From contig NZ_JACJQA010000028.1 in the NCBI RefSeq assembly GCF_014696355.1, positions 124,001-188,000 of the forward strand: DNA of 64,000 bases. The letters are read 5' to 3'. The stretch comes from Pseudanabaena sp. FACHB-1998. GTDB lineage: Bacteria; Cyanobacteriota; Cyanobacteriia; Pseudanabaenales; Pseudanabaenaceae. This document shows, in pieces, positions 8,679 to 28,628 of the stretch (position 1 is the stretch's first letter; every line of letters starts with the position of its first letter). The notes under the pieces were generated by a model. That model searched no databases. It worked only from the letters and a program-made list of their open reading frames with translations, and was not told where the DNA came from. Both the position numbers and the translations under genes were made by a program.

Positions 8679-9260
8679 CTACCGCTTAACAAAGCTAAGT
8701 AGCTTAAATAAATCATCGACTGATATTTGCCAATCTTTTAAGCCTTCTAGCACAGGCAAAAGATCTTTACCTCGGTGACTGTTAAAGCGATCGCCTTGAA
8801 AGCTAAGTACGGTTCGTTCTTGAGGGGCAATCAGCCAACCGAGTTTTGTGCCATGTTTAAGGGCAAAGCTAATTTTATCAATTACATCAATCGGTGACTG
8901 ATCAGGTGACAGAATTTCAATAATCCAGTCTGGCGAAATCTCCATCCTATTCATAATTTCACCGTTAGCATCAAGGGGGATATGCTCCCACTCAAATACC
9001 GCGATATCAGGAACGATGGATCTTCCTCCAAAAGTGCAACGCAATTCAGGAAAGGCAAACACGATTTGCTCAGGTTCGCCAAGCTGATTAATCGTAGCAA
9101 CTAGTTTTCCCTGTAATGTGCTATGTTTCCCCTGTGGCATCGGTTTCTGAAGGATATCGCCGTTGATAAATTCGCTAGCAGGCTTAGTTTCAGGAAGCAC
9201 CAAAAAATCTTCCAGTGAAATAAGGCTTTGTGGTGGTTTCGGTTGAGTCGCGATCGCCAT
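8679..9260 (-). CDS. Uma2-family (DUF820) endonuclease-fold protein
   Basis: A 193-residue member of the very large cyanobacterial Uma2 family, which has the PD-(D/E)XK nuclease fold. The N-terminal phrase TLEDFL is seen here as SLEDFLVLP, followed by EFINGDILQKPMP. The putative metal ligands are in VPDIAVFEW and WIIEILSPDQS. The members' role is unclear; proposals include mobile-element or restriction-like activity. It is a single gene convergent with the duplicated-domain gene. Its promoter region contains no obvious operator. Confidence 0.88.
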   Translation of the reverse strand: MAIATQPKPPQSLISLEDFLVLPETKPASEFINGDILQKPMPQGKHSTLQGKLVATINQLGEPEQIVFAFPELRCTFGGRSIVPDIAVFEWEHIPLDANGEIMNRMEISPDWIIEILSPDQSPIDVIDKISFALKHGTKLGWLIAPQERTVLSFQGDRFNSHRGKDLLPVLEGLKDWQISVDDLFKLLSFVKR

Positions 9261-9325
9261 AAAACTGCCTCTTAACTTACCTAGATCTTGCTTACTAAAT
9301 TAGGCTTTGCAGGAATCATCATTCT

Positions 9326-9820
9326 TTATAAATCACTTGGATTTAGTTTTTCGTATTTCTCAAAGGGTTGATGAATCCAAGGATTATCGGCTAAAAAATC
9401 AATATAGTAATCGGGTTTGGCGACAGAGCAATCTTTGAACCAGAGGACAGCCGATCGCACCTCTGTAATTTCGTATTCTTGATGTTGCTTTAGCCATTCG
9501 AGAATATTGACCAGCGTTACCCCCGAATCAACCAGATCATCAACCAGCAAAACTCTTTTGCCTAGCGTCTCCGTCGTCATCGTAATGCTATGGGCGATCG
9601 TTAATTTGCCCCTTTCTTGAAAGTCTTTGCCCCCGTAAGATGACGTAGAAAGAATTGCGAGAGGCTTGTTATAAATCCGCGACAGGACATCACCAATGCG
9701 TAAGCCACCTCTAGCAAGGCAGAGAATTTGGTCAAATTCCCACTGGGATCGATAGATCTGGGCTGCCAACTGCTCAATTTTGGCGTGATATTCTTCCCAC
9801 GAAACATAGAGGTCTGACAT
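9326..9820 (-). CDS. phosphoribosyltransferase-family protein (xanthine/hypoxanthine PRT-like)
   Basis: A type I phosphoribosyltransferase of 164 residues. The PRPP loop VLLVDDLVDSGVTL is clear (about residues 108-121), and the N-terminal LARGGLRIGDVLSR matches the pyrophosphate-binding loop of Gpt-like purine salvage enzymes. An open frame extends upstream to 10021, but the conserved protein starts at the ATG at 9820 (MSDLYVSWEEYH). The extra 67 codons are cysteine-rich, unlike any PRT, and would overlap the divergent flavodiiron gene. The exact base substrate is uncertain. Confidence 0.85.
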   Translation of the reverse strand: MSDLYVSWEEYHAKIEQLAAQIYRSQWEFDQILCLARGGLRIGDVLSRIYNKPLAILSTSSYGGKDFQERGKLTIAHSITMTTETLGKRVLLVDDLVDSGVTLVNILEWLKQHQEYEITEVRSAVLWFKDCSVAKPDYYIDFLADNPWIHQPFEKYEKLNPSDL

Positions 9821-9968
9821 AGTTAACTGACTAAACTCACAAAGACTAAGGGAAATCCTAAACTTCCCCTTTGATCTCTTATAGTAGCAATCAGTACATT
9901 CAATTGGACTTGTATAAAAGTACGGATTAGACTGGAGATAGAAAAAACATGAGATAGGAGACAAAATC

Positions 9969-11717
9969 GTGGTAGCTGTTACTGAGATTCCGTCTGCTGA
10001 AAAAATTGCAGAAAAGCCCATTGAGCGCCGCCTTACTATTCAAGTAGAAAAAATTGCGGCGGACACCACCACAATTCGATCGCTTGATTGGGATCGCGAT
10101 CGCTTTGACATTGAGTTTGGCTTGCAAAATGGCACAACCTACAACTCCTATATCATTCGTGGTGAAAAGCTTGCCCTCGTCGATACATCTCATGGCAAAT
10201 TCCGCGAACTATATCTCCAAACCCTCCAAGAGCTAATCGATCCCAGCCAAATTGAATATTTAGTAATTAGTCACACCGAGCCAGACCATAGCGGACTAGT
10301 GCGAGAAGTCCTAGCCCTTGCCCCGAATGTTACGGTGGTTGGTACAAAGGTGGCTTTACAGTTTTTGAATGATTTGGTACATCATCCTTTTAAACAGCAA
10401 ATTGTCAAAAATGGTGACCAGATCGATCTGGGCAATGGGCATATTTTGCAATTTGTGAATGCGCCTAATCTGCACTGGCCAGACACGATGATGACCTTTG
10501 ATCATGCCACCTCAATTTTGTATACTTGCGATATTTTTGGGATGCACTATTGCAGTGATGCGACCTATGACGAGGACTTAAAAAAGATTTCGCCCGACTA
10601 TCGCTTTTACTATGAATGCTTGATGGCTCCCAATGCGCGATCGGTAATTTCGGCAATGAAGCGCATGGATGAGTTGCCTCAAGTGGAAATTGTGGCGAAT
10701 GGTCACGGTCCCCTACTGCGCTATAACGTTAAGGAATTAACGGAAAACTATCGTCGCTGGAGCCAAGAGCAAACCAAAGGCGAGACGAATGTAGTGGTTT
10801 GCTATGTTTCAGACTATGGATATTGCGATCGCCTCTCCCAAGCGATCGCCCGTGGGATCGCCAAAACAGGTGTAGCCATAGAAATGGCAGACCTTAAGGT
10901 GATTGATTTGCAGGAATTGCGCGAATTAGTCAGTCATGCGGCGGGCTTAGTCGTATGTACTGCCCCAGCTTCCAATGGCAATGTAGAAACGGCGATCGGC
11001 GCAATTTTGGCGGCGGCTACCGAAAAACAGGTGATTGGTTTGTATGAACCTCATGGCAACGAAGATTCCTCCATTGACTTGCTGAATAATCGGTTTAAGG
11101 ATCTCGGAGTGGTGACAGCCTTTCCTGCTATTCGTGTCCGCGAAAATCCCAATGAAGCCACCTATCAAACCTGTGATGAAGCGGGAACTGACTTGGGACA
11201 GTTGCTCACTCGTAAGCAAAATATCAAGCAGTTAAAGGCGATCGATGCCGATCTTGATAAAGCCTTAGGACGTTTAGCAGGTGGTTTGTATATTATTTCG
11301 GCAGCAAAAGGTGGCGCTCGGAGTGCGATGTTAGCCTCTTGGGTTACACAGGCTAGTTTTAAGCCTCTGGGCTTTACGGTTGCGGTGGCAAAGGATCGGG
11401 CGATCGAGTCATTTATGCAAGTAGGCGATCGCTTTGTGTTGAATGTCCTTGAGGATGGCAACTACTCCAAGCTAATGCAGCATTTCTTGAAGCGGTTTGC
11501 CCCCGGGGCAGATCGTTTTGAAGGGGTAAAAACCCAAATTTCGCAATCGGGTGCGCCGATTTTGACCGATGCCCTTGCCTTCATCGAGTGTGAAGTGATG
11601 AGCCGCATGGAATGTAGCGATCATTGGATTATCTACGCGATCGCAGAGGAAGGACGAGTATCAAAGCCTGAAGCTCTCACCGCTACGCATCACCGCAAAA
11701 TTGGCAATCATTACTAA
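9969..11717 (+). CDS. class C flavodiiron protein (Flv3/Flv4-type ligand set)
   Basis: Reduces oxygen to water with electrons from the photosynthetic chain, protecting photosystem I under fluctuating light. Three domains are visible. The first is a beta-lactamase-like diiron domain (about 30-265) with SHTEPDHSG, LHWPDTMM and ANGHGPLL. The second is a flavodoxin domain (about 275-410) starting VVVCYVSDYGYC. The third is a C-terminal flavin reductase domain (about 428-582), the mark of class C. The H-x-E-x-D-H ligands are canonical, as described for Flv3 and Flv4 rather than Flv1 and Flv2. The start is GTG at 9969 after AGGAGA. No second flv gene is in the window, although these proteins usually work as heterodimers. 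Confidence 0.9.
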   Translation: MVAVTEIPSAEKIAEKPIERRLTIQVEKIAADTTTIRSLDWDRDRFDIEFGLQNGTTYNSYIIRGEKLALVDTSHGKFRELYLQTLQELIDPSQIEYLVISHTEPDHSGLVREVLALAPNVTVVGTKVALQFLNDLVHHPFKQQIVKNGDQIDLGNGHILQFVNAPNLHWPDTMMTFDHATSILYTCDIFGMHYCSDATYDEDLKKISPDYRFYYECLMAPNARSVISAMKRMDELPQVEIVANGHGPLLRYNVKELTENYRRWSQEQTKGETNVVVCYVSDYGYCDRLSQAIARGIAKTGVAIEMADLKVIDLQELRELVSHAAGLVVCTAPASNGNVETAIGAILAAATEKQVIGLYEPHGNEDSSIDLLNNRFKDLGVVTAFPAIRVRENPNEATYQTCDEAGTDLGQLLTRKQNIKQLKAIDADLDKALGRLAGGLYIISAAKGGARSAMLASWVTQASFKPLGFTVAVAKDRAIESFMQVGDRFVLNVLEDGNYSKLMQHFLKRFAPGADRFEGVKTQISQSGAPILTDALAFIECEVMSRMECSDHWIIYAIAEEGRVSKPEALTATHHRKIGNHY

Positions 11718-26696: not shown

Positions 26697-26742
26697 TCGA
26701 TAAATTAAGAAGGTGCTTTGCACCTTCTTAATTTATCGATTA
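26694..26742. terminator. bidirectional terminator
   Basis: Perfect inverted repeat TAATCGATAAATTAAGAAGG, TGC TTT GCA loop region and mirrored arm. It overlaps the ends of two convergent genes. Confidence 0.85.
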
Positions 26743-27104
26743 ATATAATTTCTCCAACCACCGTACTCAGTGATTTCCTTTTGCCCTTCACATAGAAAAG
26801 GCTCACCAAGAACGCCTAATACTTCTTGTCCATTATCCAAAACAATCTTGCCAATACATAATCCCGCAGGCTCAGATAGCAAGATTGCCCCCAGTGCATC
26901 GGGCGTAATTGACCAAATTTCTAAAGCGATCGCCTGTCCATTTTCGCTCACCCTAAGCATGGCGGGATGGCGATCAGCGATCGTCCATAATCGATAGATT
27001 GGCGCAGTTTTGTCTTCTCTGACAAAACTGGCTCCCACCTTCTGTAAATTATCATTTAATTCCAGCCCACGCATCAAAGTGCCATTAACTGCAAACTCAA
27101 TCAT
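26733..27104 (-). CDS. stand-alone AtzF (allophanate hydrolase) C-terminal-like domain protein
   Basis: A 123-residue protein matching the C-terminal domain of allophanate hydrolase, which has the gamma-glutamylcyclotransferase-like fold. Matching phrases are NGTLMRGLELNDNL at the start, APIYRLWTI, ALEIWSITPDALG, GLCIGKIVLDNG and the closing DITH-like EITEYGGWRNY. The amidase half is absent here. Stand-alone copies occur in cyanobacteria; the substrate is unknown, perhaps a urea- or allophanate-related compound. Monocistronic, with a shared terminator. Confidence 0.82.
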   Translation of the reverse strand: MIEFAVNGTLMRGLELNDNLQKVGASFVREDKTAPIYRLWTIADRHPAMLRVSENGQAIALEIWSITPDALGAILLSEPAGLCIGKIVLDNGQEVLGVLGEPFLCEGQKEITEYGGWRNYINR

Positions 27105-27209
27105 AGAAATTATCAGTAGTGCTAACTATTTAAGAACAGACAGCGCAAAGCTTCGCCCATCGTTAAATAATATAGCGCGTTGCTTTTGAGGATTTTGTAT
27201 TTTTACTTA

Positions 27210-27238
27210 TTGTCAAACTTAGATTTGTCAGTTATATT
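27210..27238 (+). promoter_or_regulatory. predicted promoter of the small peptide gene
   Basis: TTGTCA at 27210-27215, a 17-base spacer and TATATT at 27233-27238. This is the best sigma70-type match I noticed in the window and it points at the small ORF at 27320. Transcription should start near 27245, giving a 5' leader of about 75 bases. Confidence 0.6.
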
Positions 27239-27319
27239 GTGTACAAGCTTGAAAAAGCCTGTGATGCCAAGCATTACTAAACAAATAACAAACATTTAGA
27301 TAGACAGGAGGTGATGCCC

Positions 27320-27394
27320 ATGCAATCAGATAGTAGTAACGGTAAACGTATGGGTCTTCAGGTTTCCGAGCTGTGTGCTGGGGCTGTTCTGTAA
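27320..27394 (+). CDS. predicted 24-residue peptide with perfect Shine-Dalgarno
   Basis: The ORF MQSDSSNGKR MGLQVSELCA GAVL has AGGAGGTG at 27306-27313, ideally spaced before ATG 27320. An in-frame ATG at 27314 overlaps the Shine-Dalgarno and is unlikely to be used. The peptide is hydrophilic in its first half and ends in a short hydrophobic stretch with one cysteine; it is too short and polar for a membrane helix. The start codon sits in a possible stem: CCCATGC (27317-27323) can pair with GTATGGG (27348-27354, one G-T pair). It is flanked by its own promoter and terminator. I do not recognise it. It could be a leader peptide, but no plus-strand gene follows. Confidence 0.55.
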   Translation: MQSDSSNGKRMGLQVSELCAGAVL

Positions 27395-27494
27395 GGTATT
27401 TAGTTGATTATCTCTAGTTCGCTAGTTTAATTATCTAGTAACCCTGAGATCCTTCCAGCAGTTGACTGTGACCTAAAGATCCTAAAGTATTCCG
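27395..27494 (+). other. 3' region of the small transcript
   Basis: About 100 bases between the peptide stop and the terminator, AT-rich with repeated AGATCCT words (at about 27448 and 27476). No coding potential. It could carry a structured regulatory RNA part, but I see no long stem. Confidence 0.35.
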
Positions 27495-27533
27495 AAACAA
27501 AAAGACCTAGTCAATGACTAGGTCTTTTTGTTT
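27495..27533. terminator. bidirectional terminator between peptide gene and ychF
   Basis: Perfect stem AAACAAAAAGACCTAGTCA / TGACTAGGTCTTTTTGTTT, with A and T tracts on either side. Confidence 0.85.
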
Positions 27534-28628
27534 TTAGGCACTGGTGAGGAATAAAATCACATCGCCTTCTTGAACGACATATTCTTTCCCTTCACTGCGG
27601 AGTAGTCCCTTAGAACGCGCCGCACTCATTGATCCTGATTCTATAAGATCTTTAAATGCTACGGTTTCGGCACGGATGAAGGCTTTCTCAAAATCAGAGT
27701 GAATCACCCCTGCGGCTTGGGGTGCTTTCATGCCAGCATGAATTGTCCATGCTCTAGCTTCTTTGGGCCCAACTGTGAAGTAGGTACGCAGTCCTAAAAG
27801 ATGATAGGTAGCCCGAATTAGAGACTTCAATCCGCCTTCCCTTACACCCAAGGACTCTAGATAGTCTTGACGTTCTTCGTCGGGTAATTCTAATAACTCG
27901 GCTTCAACTTGAGCCGAAACGATAGTTACTTCAGCATTTTCTGTGGCGGCGATCGCCTTGACCTTATCGACAAACGCATTGCCTGTGGCTAAATCATCTT
28001 CAGCGACATTAGCAGCATAAATTGTAGGCTTGAGAGTTAACAACTGAAGCACAGAAATGGCATCTTTTTCTTCGTCGGAGAGATTAGCGAGACGAGCGGG
28101 CTTACCAGAATCTAACACTTCCCGAACTTTTTCTAAGGCAGCTAATTCCATCTTTGCTTCGGAATCATTACTGCGAACTGCTTTGCGAGTACGATCAATA
28201 CGACGCTCTACTTGTGCCAAGTCCGATAGAGCTAGTTCAAGGGTAATGATTTCAATATCACGAACGGGATCAATCGATGCTTCCACATGGATGATGTCAT
28301 CATTTTCAAAACATCGCACGACATGCACGATCGCATCGCAAACTCGGATATTTCCTAAAAATTGATTTCCTAGTCCTTCACCCTTACTTGCGCCTCTGAC
28401 CAATCCTGCAATATCGACAAATTCGACTCTGGTAGGTATGATTTGGGCAGATTTGCCGACTTCAGCAAGAGTAGTCAGGCGATCGTCAGGTACTGACACC
28501 GAGCCAACATTAGGTTCGATCGTACAAAAGGGAAAGTTGGCTGCTTCGGCTTTGGCGTTGGCAACTAGGGCATTAAATAACGTAGACTTGCCCACATTGG
28601 GTAGTCCGACAATCCCAGCTTTGAGCAT
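27534..28628 (-). CDS. ychF: redox-regulated ATPase / Obg-like P-loop protein YchF
   Basis: A universally conserved Obg-family protein that hydrolyses ATP rather than GTP and associates with ribosomes and the stress response. The G1 loop is GLPNVGKSTLFNAL (about residues 8-21), the G2/G3 region VEFVDIAGLVRGASKGEGLGNQ. The central coiled-coil insertion (VERRIDRTRKAVR) and the C-terminal TGS domain (KDLIESGSMSAARSKGLLRSEG ending VILFLTSA, split by EGKEYVVQEGD) are intact. It has 364 residues, the usual length. Confidence 0.97.
   Translation of the reverse strand: MLKAGIVGLPNVGKSTLFNALVANAKAEAANFPFCTIEPNVGSVSVPDDRLTTLAEVGKSAQIIPTRVEFVDIAGLVRGASKGEGLGNQFLGNIRVCDAIVHVVRCFENDDIIHVEASIDPVRDIEIITLELALSDLAQVERRIDRTRKAVRSNDSEAKMELAALEKVREVLDSGKPARLANLSDEEKDAISVLQLLTLKPTIYAANVAEDDLATGNAFVDKVKAIAATENAEVTIVSAQVEAELLELPDEERQDYLESLGVREGGLKSLIRATYHLLGLRTYFTVGPKEARAWTIHAGMKAPQAAGVIHSDFEKAFIRAETVAFKDLIESGSMSAARSKGLLRSEGKEYVVQEGDVILFLTSA

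Follow-up and report, generated by a model that had tools for sequence, protein, structure and literature searches.

The Pseudanabaena copy of a cyanobacteria-wide, structured and probably translated small RNA gene and its proposed role as a bistable switch

Introduction

What is the function of a transcription unit that offers only 24 codons, and does it act through its peptide, through its RNA or through a neighboring gene? The question is raised by a plus-strand unit in Pseudanabaena sp. FACHB-1998 that lies in the gap 27105-27533 of the window (the whole stretch of 64,000 nucleotides analyzed here) between a minus-strand ORF and a convergent ychF gene. A sequence-only reading of this DNA had described it as a self-contained small peptide gene whose start codon could be paired with an internal segment. 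Comparison across the cyanobacteria leads us to propose, with a probability of roughly 60%, that it is the local copy of a class-wide small RNA gene that is both translated and structured, and which acts as a bistable switch rather than as a leader of the next gene.

A self-contained transcription unit

The components of a complete small gene proposed earlier, namely a promoter, a 75-base leader, a strong Shine-Dalgarno (SD) sequence, 24 codons, a tail of about 100 bases between stop and terminator, and the terminator itself, are all borne out (Table 1). The promoter matches 10 of 12 consensus positions and is the sole plus-strand site in a 1.2-kb scan; taken alone it is not significant, as 2.2 such sites are expected by chance per shuffled region. 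Transcription would accordingly start near 27245 and yield an RNA of about 290 nt that reaches 27533. The SD 10-mer AGGAGGTGAT, which we take to be complementary to the 3' end of 16S rRNA (the anti-SD), has just 8 copies in the 4.8-Mb genome, with 5 for the reversed-pattern control. The longer AGGAGGTGATGCC presumably matches the complement of the same rRNA end over about 12-13 bases with one G bulged and, if that bulge is admitted, the match far exceeds that of a usual cyanobacterial SD. GGAGGTG and most of the bases following it are invariant in the family alignment.

Table 1. Features of the locus in window coordinates and helices of the class-wide alignment. In alignment columns, O has the ATG at 17-19 and B counts from the G of GTTCC; two-sided changes are given against shuffles.
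Feature	Window position	Strand	Description	Alignment columns	Cells paired	Two-sided changes
Upstream neighbor ORF	26733-27104	minus				
Promoter	27210-27238	plus	-35 TTGTCA 27210-27215, 17-base spacer, -10 TATATT 27233-27238			
5' leader	27245-27305	plus	Weakly conserved apart from TTTAGg box right before the SD			
Extended SD AGGAGGTGAT	27306-27315	plus	8 bases separate AGGAGG from ATG			
Putative 16S rRNA match AGGAGGTGATGCC	27306-27319	plus				
ORF, 24 codons, MQSDSSNGKRMGLQVSELCAGAVL	27320-27394	plus	ATG 27320; stop TAA 27392-27394; frame conserved class-wide			
Variable linker	27395-27447	plus	Self-folding tip of rod; 6-160 bases long in relatives			
Conserved 3' UTR block	27448-27482	plus	Carries PB3 3' strand 27453-27460 and PA 3' strand 27471-27482			
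Intrinsic terminator	27495-27533	plus	Long perfect symmetrical hairpin with U-run; abuts ychF			
ychF, convergent	27534-28628	minus				
Helix P1	27316-27321 (GCCCAU) with 27350-27355 (AUGGGU)	plus	6/6 pairs; 5' strand holds first two start-codon bases			
Helix PA	27352-27363 with 27471-27482	plus	11/12 pairs; predicted probability 0.90 in full RNA; covariation class-wide	O39-54 with B22-37	85%	154 vs 59 +- 6
Helix PB1				O59-62 with B18-21	85%	38 vs 10
Helix PB2				O63-66 with B13-16	97%	18 vs 5
Helix PB3	27376-27383 with 27453-27460	plus	5' strand UGCUGGGG, codons C-A-G-A; 8/8 pairs; predicted probability 0.90; covariation	O71-77 with B6-12	98%	23 vs 4

The strong terminator is likewise present but needs a broader description: being symmetrical and abutting ychF, it probably serves this convergent gene too, ending both transcripts in the genus. 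It is retained in genomes without an adjacent ychF. Other genera carry a different terminator sequence (GAGCGGATAGTTTTT).

A DNA search of 58 genomes, comprising the genome itself and its relatives, returned a match in 45. Essentially all of the unit is conserved, at 80-89% identity, in some 22 further genomes of the genus, where most alignments start within query bases 9-11 (positions 27208-27210, at the -35 box) and finish at 331-340 (the terminator). This holds despite differing flanks, which contain ychF in many genomes and other genes in four (L008, L021, L022 and L024). Conservation bounded by the -35 box and the terminator, also where ychF is not the neighbor, places the unit beyond chance.

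Phyletic distribution and relationship to ncl0160

In other genera the DNA-level match extends only from the SD through the stop. A covariance model (R1) built on this stretch and run on 390 genomes of the class, among them small genomes of 1.7-2.3 Mb without a match, recovers 283 genomes from 130 of 160 genera, nearly always as a single copy. The carriers include Fischerella, Moorena, Okeania, Picosynechococcus, Thermosynechococcus and the 2.8-Mb genome of an Epithemia endosymbiont; no match was obtained for two genomes, of 1.7 and 2.3 Mb, that rank among the smallest tested. Searching 38 genomes with greater sensitivity yields additional weak matches to the model, one of which, a deep homolog in a 4.7-Mb genome, encodes MSIPGTSLNLRTANGRLCAGAVAL and another MDCSSKQLGRRVGECWLYTELSFG. 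The core is thus conserved across the cyanobacterial class, and the restriction to close strains that the sequence-only reading had named as a ground for giving up the gene is excluded.

The family consensus reads AGGAGGTGATGCCCATG...GATAGTAGTAAA and is followed, past the stop and the linker, by a second conserved block GTTCCTTCCGGCAGTCAGGTTTCAACCTGAAGACCCGCTAGACCGCTC and then by the terminator, which often ends in GAGCGGATAGTTTTT. A pattern recovers the 3' block from 147 of 178 elements, and inspection by eye shows it in most of the remaining ones. Since an extended -10 element (TGTGnTATAnT) is also conserved class-wide, about 75-80 bases 5' of the SD, the genes generally appear to possess their own promoter. 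The tandem stops TAG TAG TAA in the +2 frame of GATAGTAGTAAA were considered as a functional feature and dropped, as nothing supports them. An Anaerolineales MAG (L134:6667-6694) and a further record (L210) show the SD-start-AGTAGT pattern only, with the rest of the element absent, and were set aside as probable chance occurrences. The pattern used recovered no copies from the virus collection. Rfam searches at gathering and relaxed thresholds gave nothing credible for the region, and the peptide has no profile match in Pfam or NCBIfam, which at 24 residues is a weak test. The region falls below the gathering thresholds of all Rfam families, including Yfr1, Yfr2, 6S and Cyano-1/2. Yfr1 and Yfr2 are likewise cyanobacteria-wide small RNA genes; neither of these two is known to be coding.

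The peptide had been described as matching no known small cyanobacterial protein, a statement that has to be amended, as it fits the one proposed for the sRNA ncl0160 of Synechocystis 6803, for which the accessible text reports homologs in Nostoc 7120 and others (Brenes-Alvarez et al. 2016, PMC4734099). According to that text, the homologs occur in 83 strains among 89 genomes and so in nearly all non-picocyanobacterial ones, those of Nostoc and Synechocystis are transcribed, and they may encode a peptide of 23-25 aa with an SD, an ATG or rarely GTG start, and 47 TAA, 34 TAG and 2 TGA stops (PMC4734099). Our elements similarly have an ORF of 23-25 aa with an SD and ATG or rare GTG starts; their stop usage (98/75/4 TAA/TAG/TGA in 178 elements) closely follows the approximately 57/41/2% of ncl0160, and their presence in most genomes of the class accords with a phylum-wide intergenic sRNA. 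Because the figures for ORF, starts, stops and distribution agree this closely, the window gene, as judged by these features, very probably belongs to the ncl0160 family. The part of the ncl0160 text available to us describes neither a long-range pairing of ORF and 3' UTR nor a switch (PMC4734099), so that the family itself is already known while the covarying rod and the switch presented below are new as far as this text goes.

Within the literature searched, no other paper names ncl0160, none contains the letters of the peptide or the SD, and no function is reported for the family. The gene is not named in the accessible text of a study of Synechocystis small proteins (PMC5126843) or of a CRISPRi screen (PMC10615215). 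Norf1, Norf4, NsiR6 and HliR1 are comparable short cyanobacterial ORFs formerly taken as ncRNA, but they have at least 31 aa, and Table 2 of that study offers no obvious counterpart as judged by length only (PMC5126843).

Genomic neighborhoods

A survey of 168 loci finds pcd as the next downstream gene in 54, a porin gene in 29 and ychF in 12. With gene names assigned from the look of the sequences, the element often lies 3' of psbD and 5' of genes for a pterin-4a-carbinolamine dehydratase and a porin of the iron-uptake type (L026, L036, L037, L039, L041, L050-L052 and others); elsewhere it lies 3' of nadC or of a cobyrinate diamide synthase gene. That pcd or porin stands first downstream on the same strand in 83 loci, together with the succession of an ORF and a terminator as in an attenuator layout, might suggest that the element serves the dehydratase and then the porin as a leader peptide or attenuator. 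We consider this highly improbable: the next gene is convergent in 43 of the 168 loci, the window included, where the unit is equally conserved, so that there is no fixed co-directional gene; additionally, the terminator is strong and the distances to pcd vary widely. As a general function, the control of pcd and porin is refuted by the convergent loci. The varied neighbors and convergent next genes instead argue for a role that is independent of the neighbors.

The reading frame and its constraints

The consensus peptide is M-x-D-S-S-K-x-M-G-H-Q-V-x-V-S-R-L-C-A-G-A-V-L. In 147 of 147 elements the ATG and a conserved downstream CTGnnnGCC landmark stand 48 or 51 apart and hence always in frame, a uniformity underlain by few independent indels; past this landmark the linker is random modulo 3 (60/40/43). 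The start codon is ATG in 176 of 178 elements and GTG in 2. Among 101 full-length ORFs the three stops interchange at one place (TAA 50, TAG 49, TGA 2), and internal stops number 0 against 17.6 expected with shuffled columns, a count conditioned by the selection of this set for full length. The conservation of the frame and the interchange of stops represent the coding constraint sought in a dual-function sRNA, with the residue constraint being weakly separable from that on the RNA.

These observations, along with the class-wide retention of most of M-x-D-S-S-K...R-L-C-A-G-A-V-L and of the stop position, and the persistence of the frame where the rod described below is lost, favor a reading in which the 23-24-residue peptide is the product that matters, while RNA structure merely tunes its synthesis or the stability of the mRNA. 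Several features weigh against it and leave it a tentative alternative. Third codon positions are not freer than the others (mean entropy 0.69, 0.82 and 0.81 across the three positions), serines 4-5 are coded AGT in 194 of 195 cases, and half of the conserved residues fall in paired codons. In Thermosynechococcus-type genomes and one Synechococcus elongatus-like genome (L082, L087, L091, L108, L163 and L101), codon 18, a cysteine elsewhere, is TAG or TGA, which removes the last six codons and leaves a 17-aa peptide. Past this stop, the Thermosynechococcus-type genomes keep the bases that pair with the 3' UTR. Moreover, the C-terminus is wholly replaced in sister genera. Thus, the earlier notion of a small peptide gene stands with respect to a self-contained unit that is probably translated and whose RNA structure is tied to translation, but not with respect to the kind of conservation, which, given the third positions, the AGT serines and the covariation of the ORF with the 3' UTR, is not mainly of the peptide type. 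The pattern that had been set out as contradicting it, RNA pairing retained with a disrupted frame, is partly realized in the codon-18 stops of the Thermosynechococcus-type genomes. We read the comparative data as pointing to translation in nearly all lineages, with the constraint on the RNA exceeding that on the residues, above all in the second half of the ORF.

A long-range rod between the ORF and the 3' UTR

The RNA-level constraint finds its counterpart in a rod formed by codons 8-20 (consensus numbering) and the conserved 3' UTR block. In an alignment of 114 non-redundant sequences of ORF plus block, the top mutual-information pairs out of about 9,000-10,000 are ORF-to-block pairs lying on helix diagonals, and two-sided changes exceed those in shuffles for all four helices (Table 1). 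For instance, O73-B10 is CG in 93 sequences and TA in 17, while O54-B22 is AT in 45, GC in 16, GT in 16 and CG in 13. The shuffle controls ignore relatedness, which is addressed only in part by two further controls: a slide by one base collapses the pairing, with PA dropping to at most 52%, and the covariation persists after thinning to 58, 37 and 19 sequences. In the deep homolog (L228), with a different PA sequence, the ORF GAATCT still meets AGATTC in the 3' UTR, as seen by eye. The ORF region folded alone is no more stable than its shuffles (z 0.01); the structure signal emerges solely in its covariation with the 3' block. In the window copy, PB1 does not form in the predicted fold.

The rod is lost in six genomes of the same family (L029, L035, L045 and L104-L106), in which the 3' block and the LCAGAVL end are gone. 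These sister genera retain the SD, the start codon, most of DSSK and a frame of 22-28 codons, indicating that some lineages can dispense with the rod. Comparison across the class establishes the unit, the frame and the rod at the level of sequence.

The conserved block also bears on the possibility of a trans-acting RNA, in which a ribosome would open the rod and the C-rich block (UUCCUUCC/UUCCUCC) would pair with target mRNAs, the peptide being a by-product. The C-richness of the block and its complementarity to SD-like sequences speak for this, as do the dominance of constraint at the RNA level in the ORF and the presence of a single gene independent of location. However, pairing with the ORF already explains the conservation of the block, which covaries with the ORF rather than being fixed to an outside partner, and we accord this alternative a minor share of the probability. 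An analogous design is known from RNAIII of Staphylococcus, which is structured, pairs over long range and carries a 26-residue ORF and C-rich 3' motifs, features with counterparts here; the two are nevertheless unrelated, as there is no agr context here and it is the coding region itself that pairs with the 3' UTR.

The start-codon hairpin and the proposed switch

The pairing of the start codon noted earlier is real (P1, GCCCAU with AUGGGU) but amounts to half of the structure, since AUGGGU has a second partner in the 3' UTR. P1 and PA share this strand of the ORF and are therefore mutually exclusive. In the main set, where the rod exists, P1 is nearly invariant and consequently without covariation. 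A hairpin at its place is predicted in most of the six rod-less genomes, and in several (L035, L045, L104 and L105; by eye) it is longer or perfect with compensatory changes: the GTG start of L045 faces GCGGG and TCC in L105 faces GGA.

Predicted equilibrium probabilities at 37 C for 98 sequences give P1 a median of 0.99 for RNA that ends at the stop, 0.01 when the 3' block is added and 0.98 when this block is shuffled. The corresponding values for an open start codon are 0.04 without the block, 0.41 with it and 0.02 after shuffling. For the window, P1 falls from 0.89 in the 5' fragment to 0.01 in the full RNA, and the openness of the start codon rises from 0.06 to 0.56 with the 3' block, which leaves it only about half open in the predicted full RNA. 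The rod is thus predicted to displace P1.

In the switch that we favor, the order of folding during transcription would be such that the nascent 5' part first forms P1 and buries the start codon; the 3' block, once transcribed, would capture the AUGGGU strand, dissolve P1 and open the start codon; and a translating ribosome, for its part, would unwind the rod and so make the 3' block accessible. Translation of the peptide would thereby be coupled to the state of the block, and the RNA would therefore be a bistable switch on its own account, operating in trans or via its peptide. Between the peptide and the RNA as the main effector, we regard the odds as about even.

A precedent for timing by folding is the hok mRNA of hok/sok, in which a metastable 5' hairpin and 5'-3' pairing time translation. 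Both elements recur here, but the 3' block is predicted to open and not to close the start codon. The short ORF and the folding back of the mRNA from its 3' side could also be taken to mean a type I toxin-antitoxin mRNA of the hok kind with translation restrained by RNA pairing. The chances of this are next to negligible: the peptide sequence has no membrane-spanning segment and is thus unlike a membrane toxin, the gene is single-copy and fixed across the whole class, the pattern used finds it absent from the virus collection, and no antisense unit is seen on reading the sequence alone.

Implications

The bistable switch could be extended to the view that the gene is a cyanobacteria-wide RNA sensor of translation, in which the conserved function would lie in translating more than in the peptide produced. 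The near-perfect SD would place a ribosome on a short frame that is held to the 3' UTR by its second half; movement or arrest of that ribosome would pick between the exclusive folds and hence decide whether the 3' block can act on other RNAs. We consider this extension speculative and on balance rather unlikely. For so short a peptide gene, the pairing in the rod provides an explanation for the conserved nucleotide sequence, and the mutual exclusion of the rod and the start-codon hairpin furnishes a concrete model that point mutants and compensatory mutants can test. A single-copy gene that is kept by most cyanobacteria, even in the reduced genome of an endosymbiont, is likely to matter to the biology of the group.
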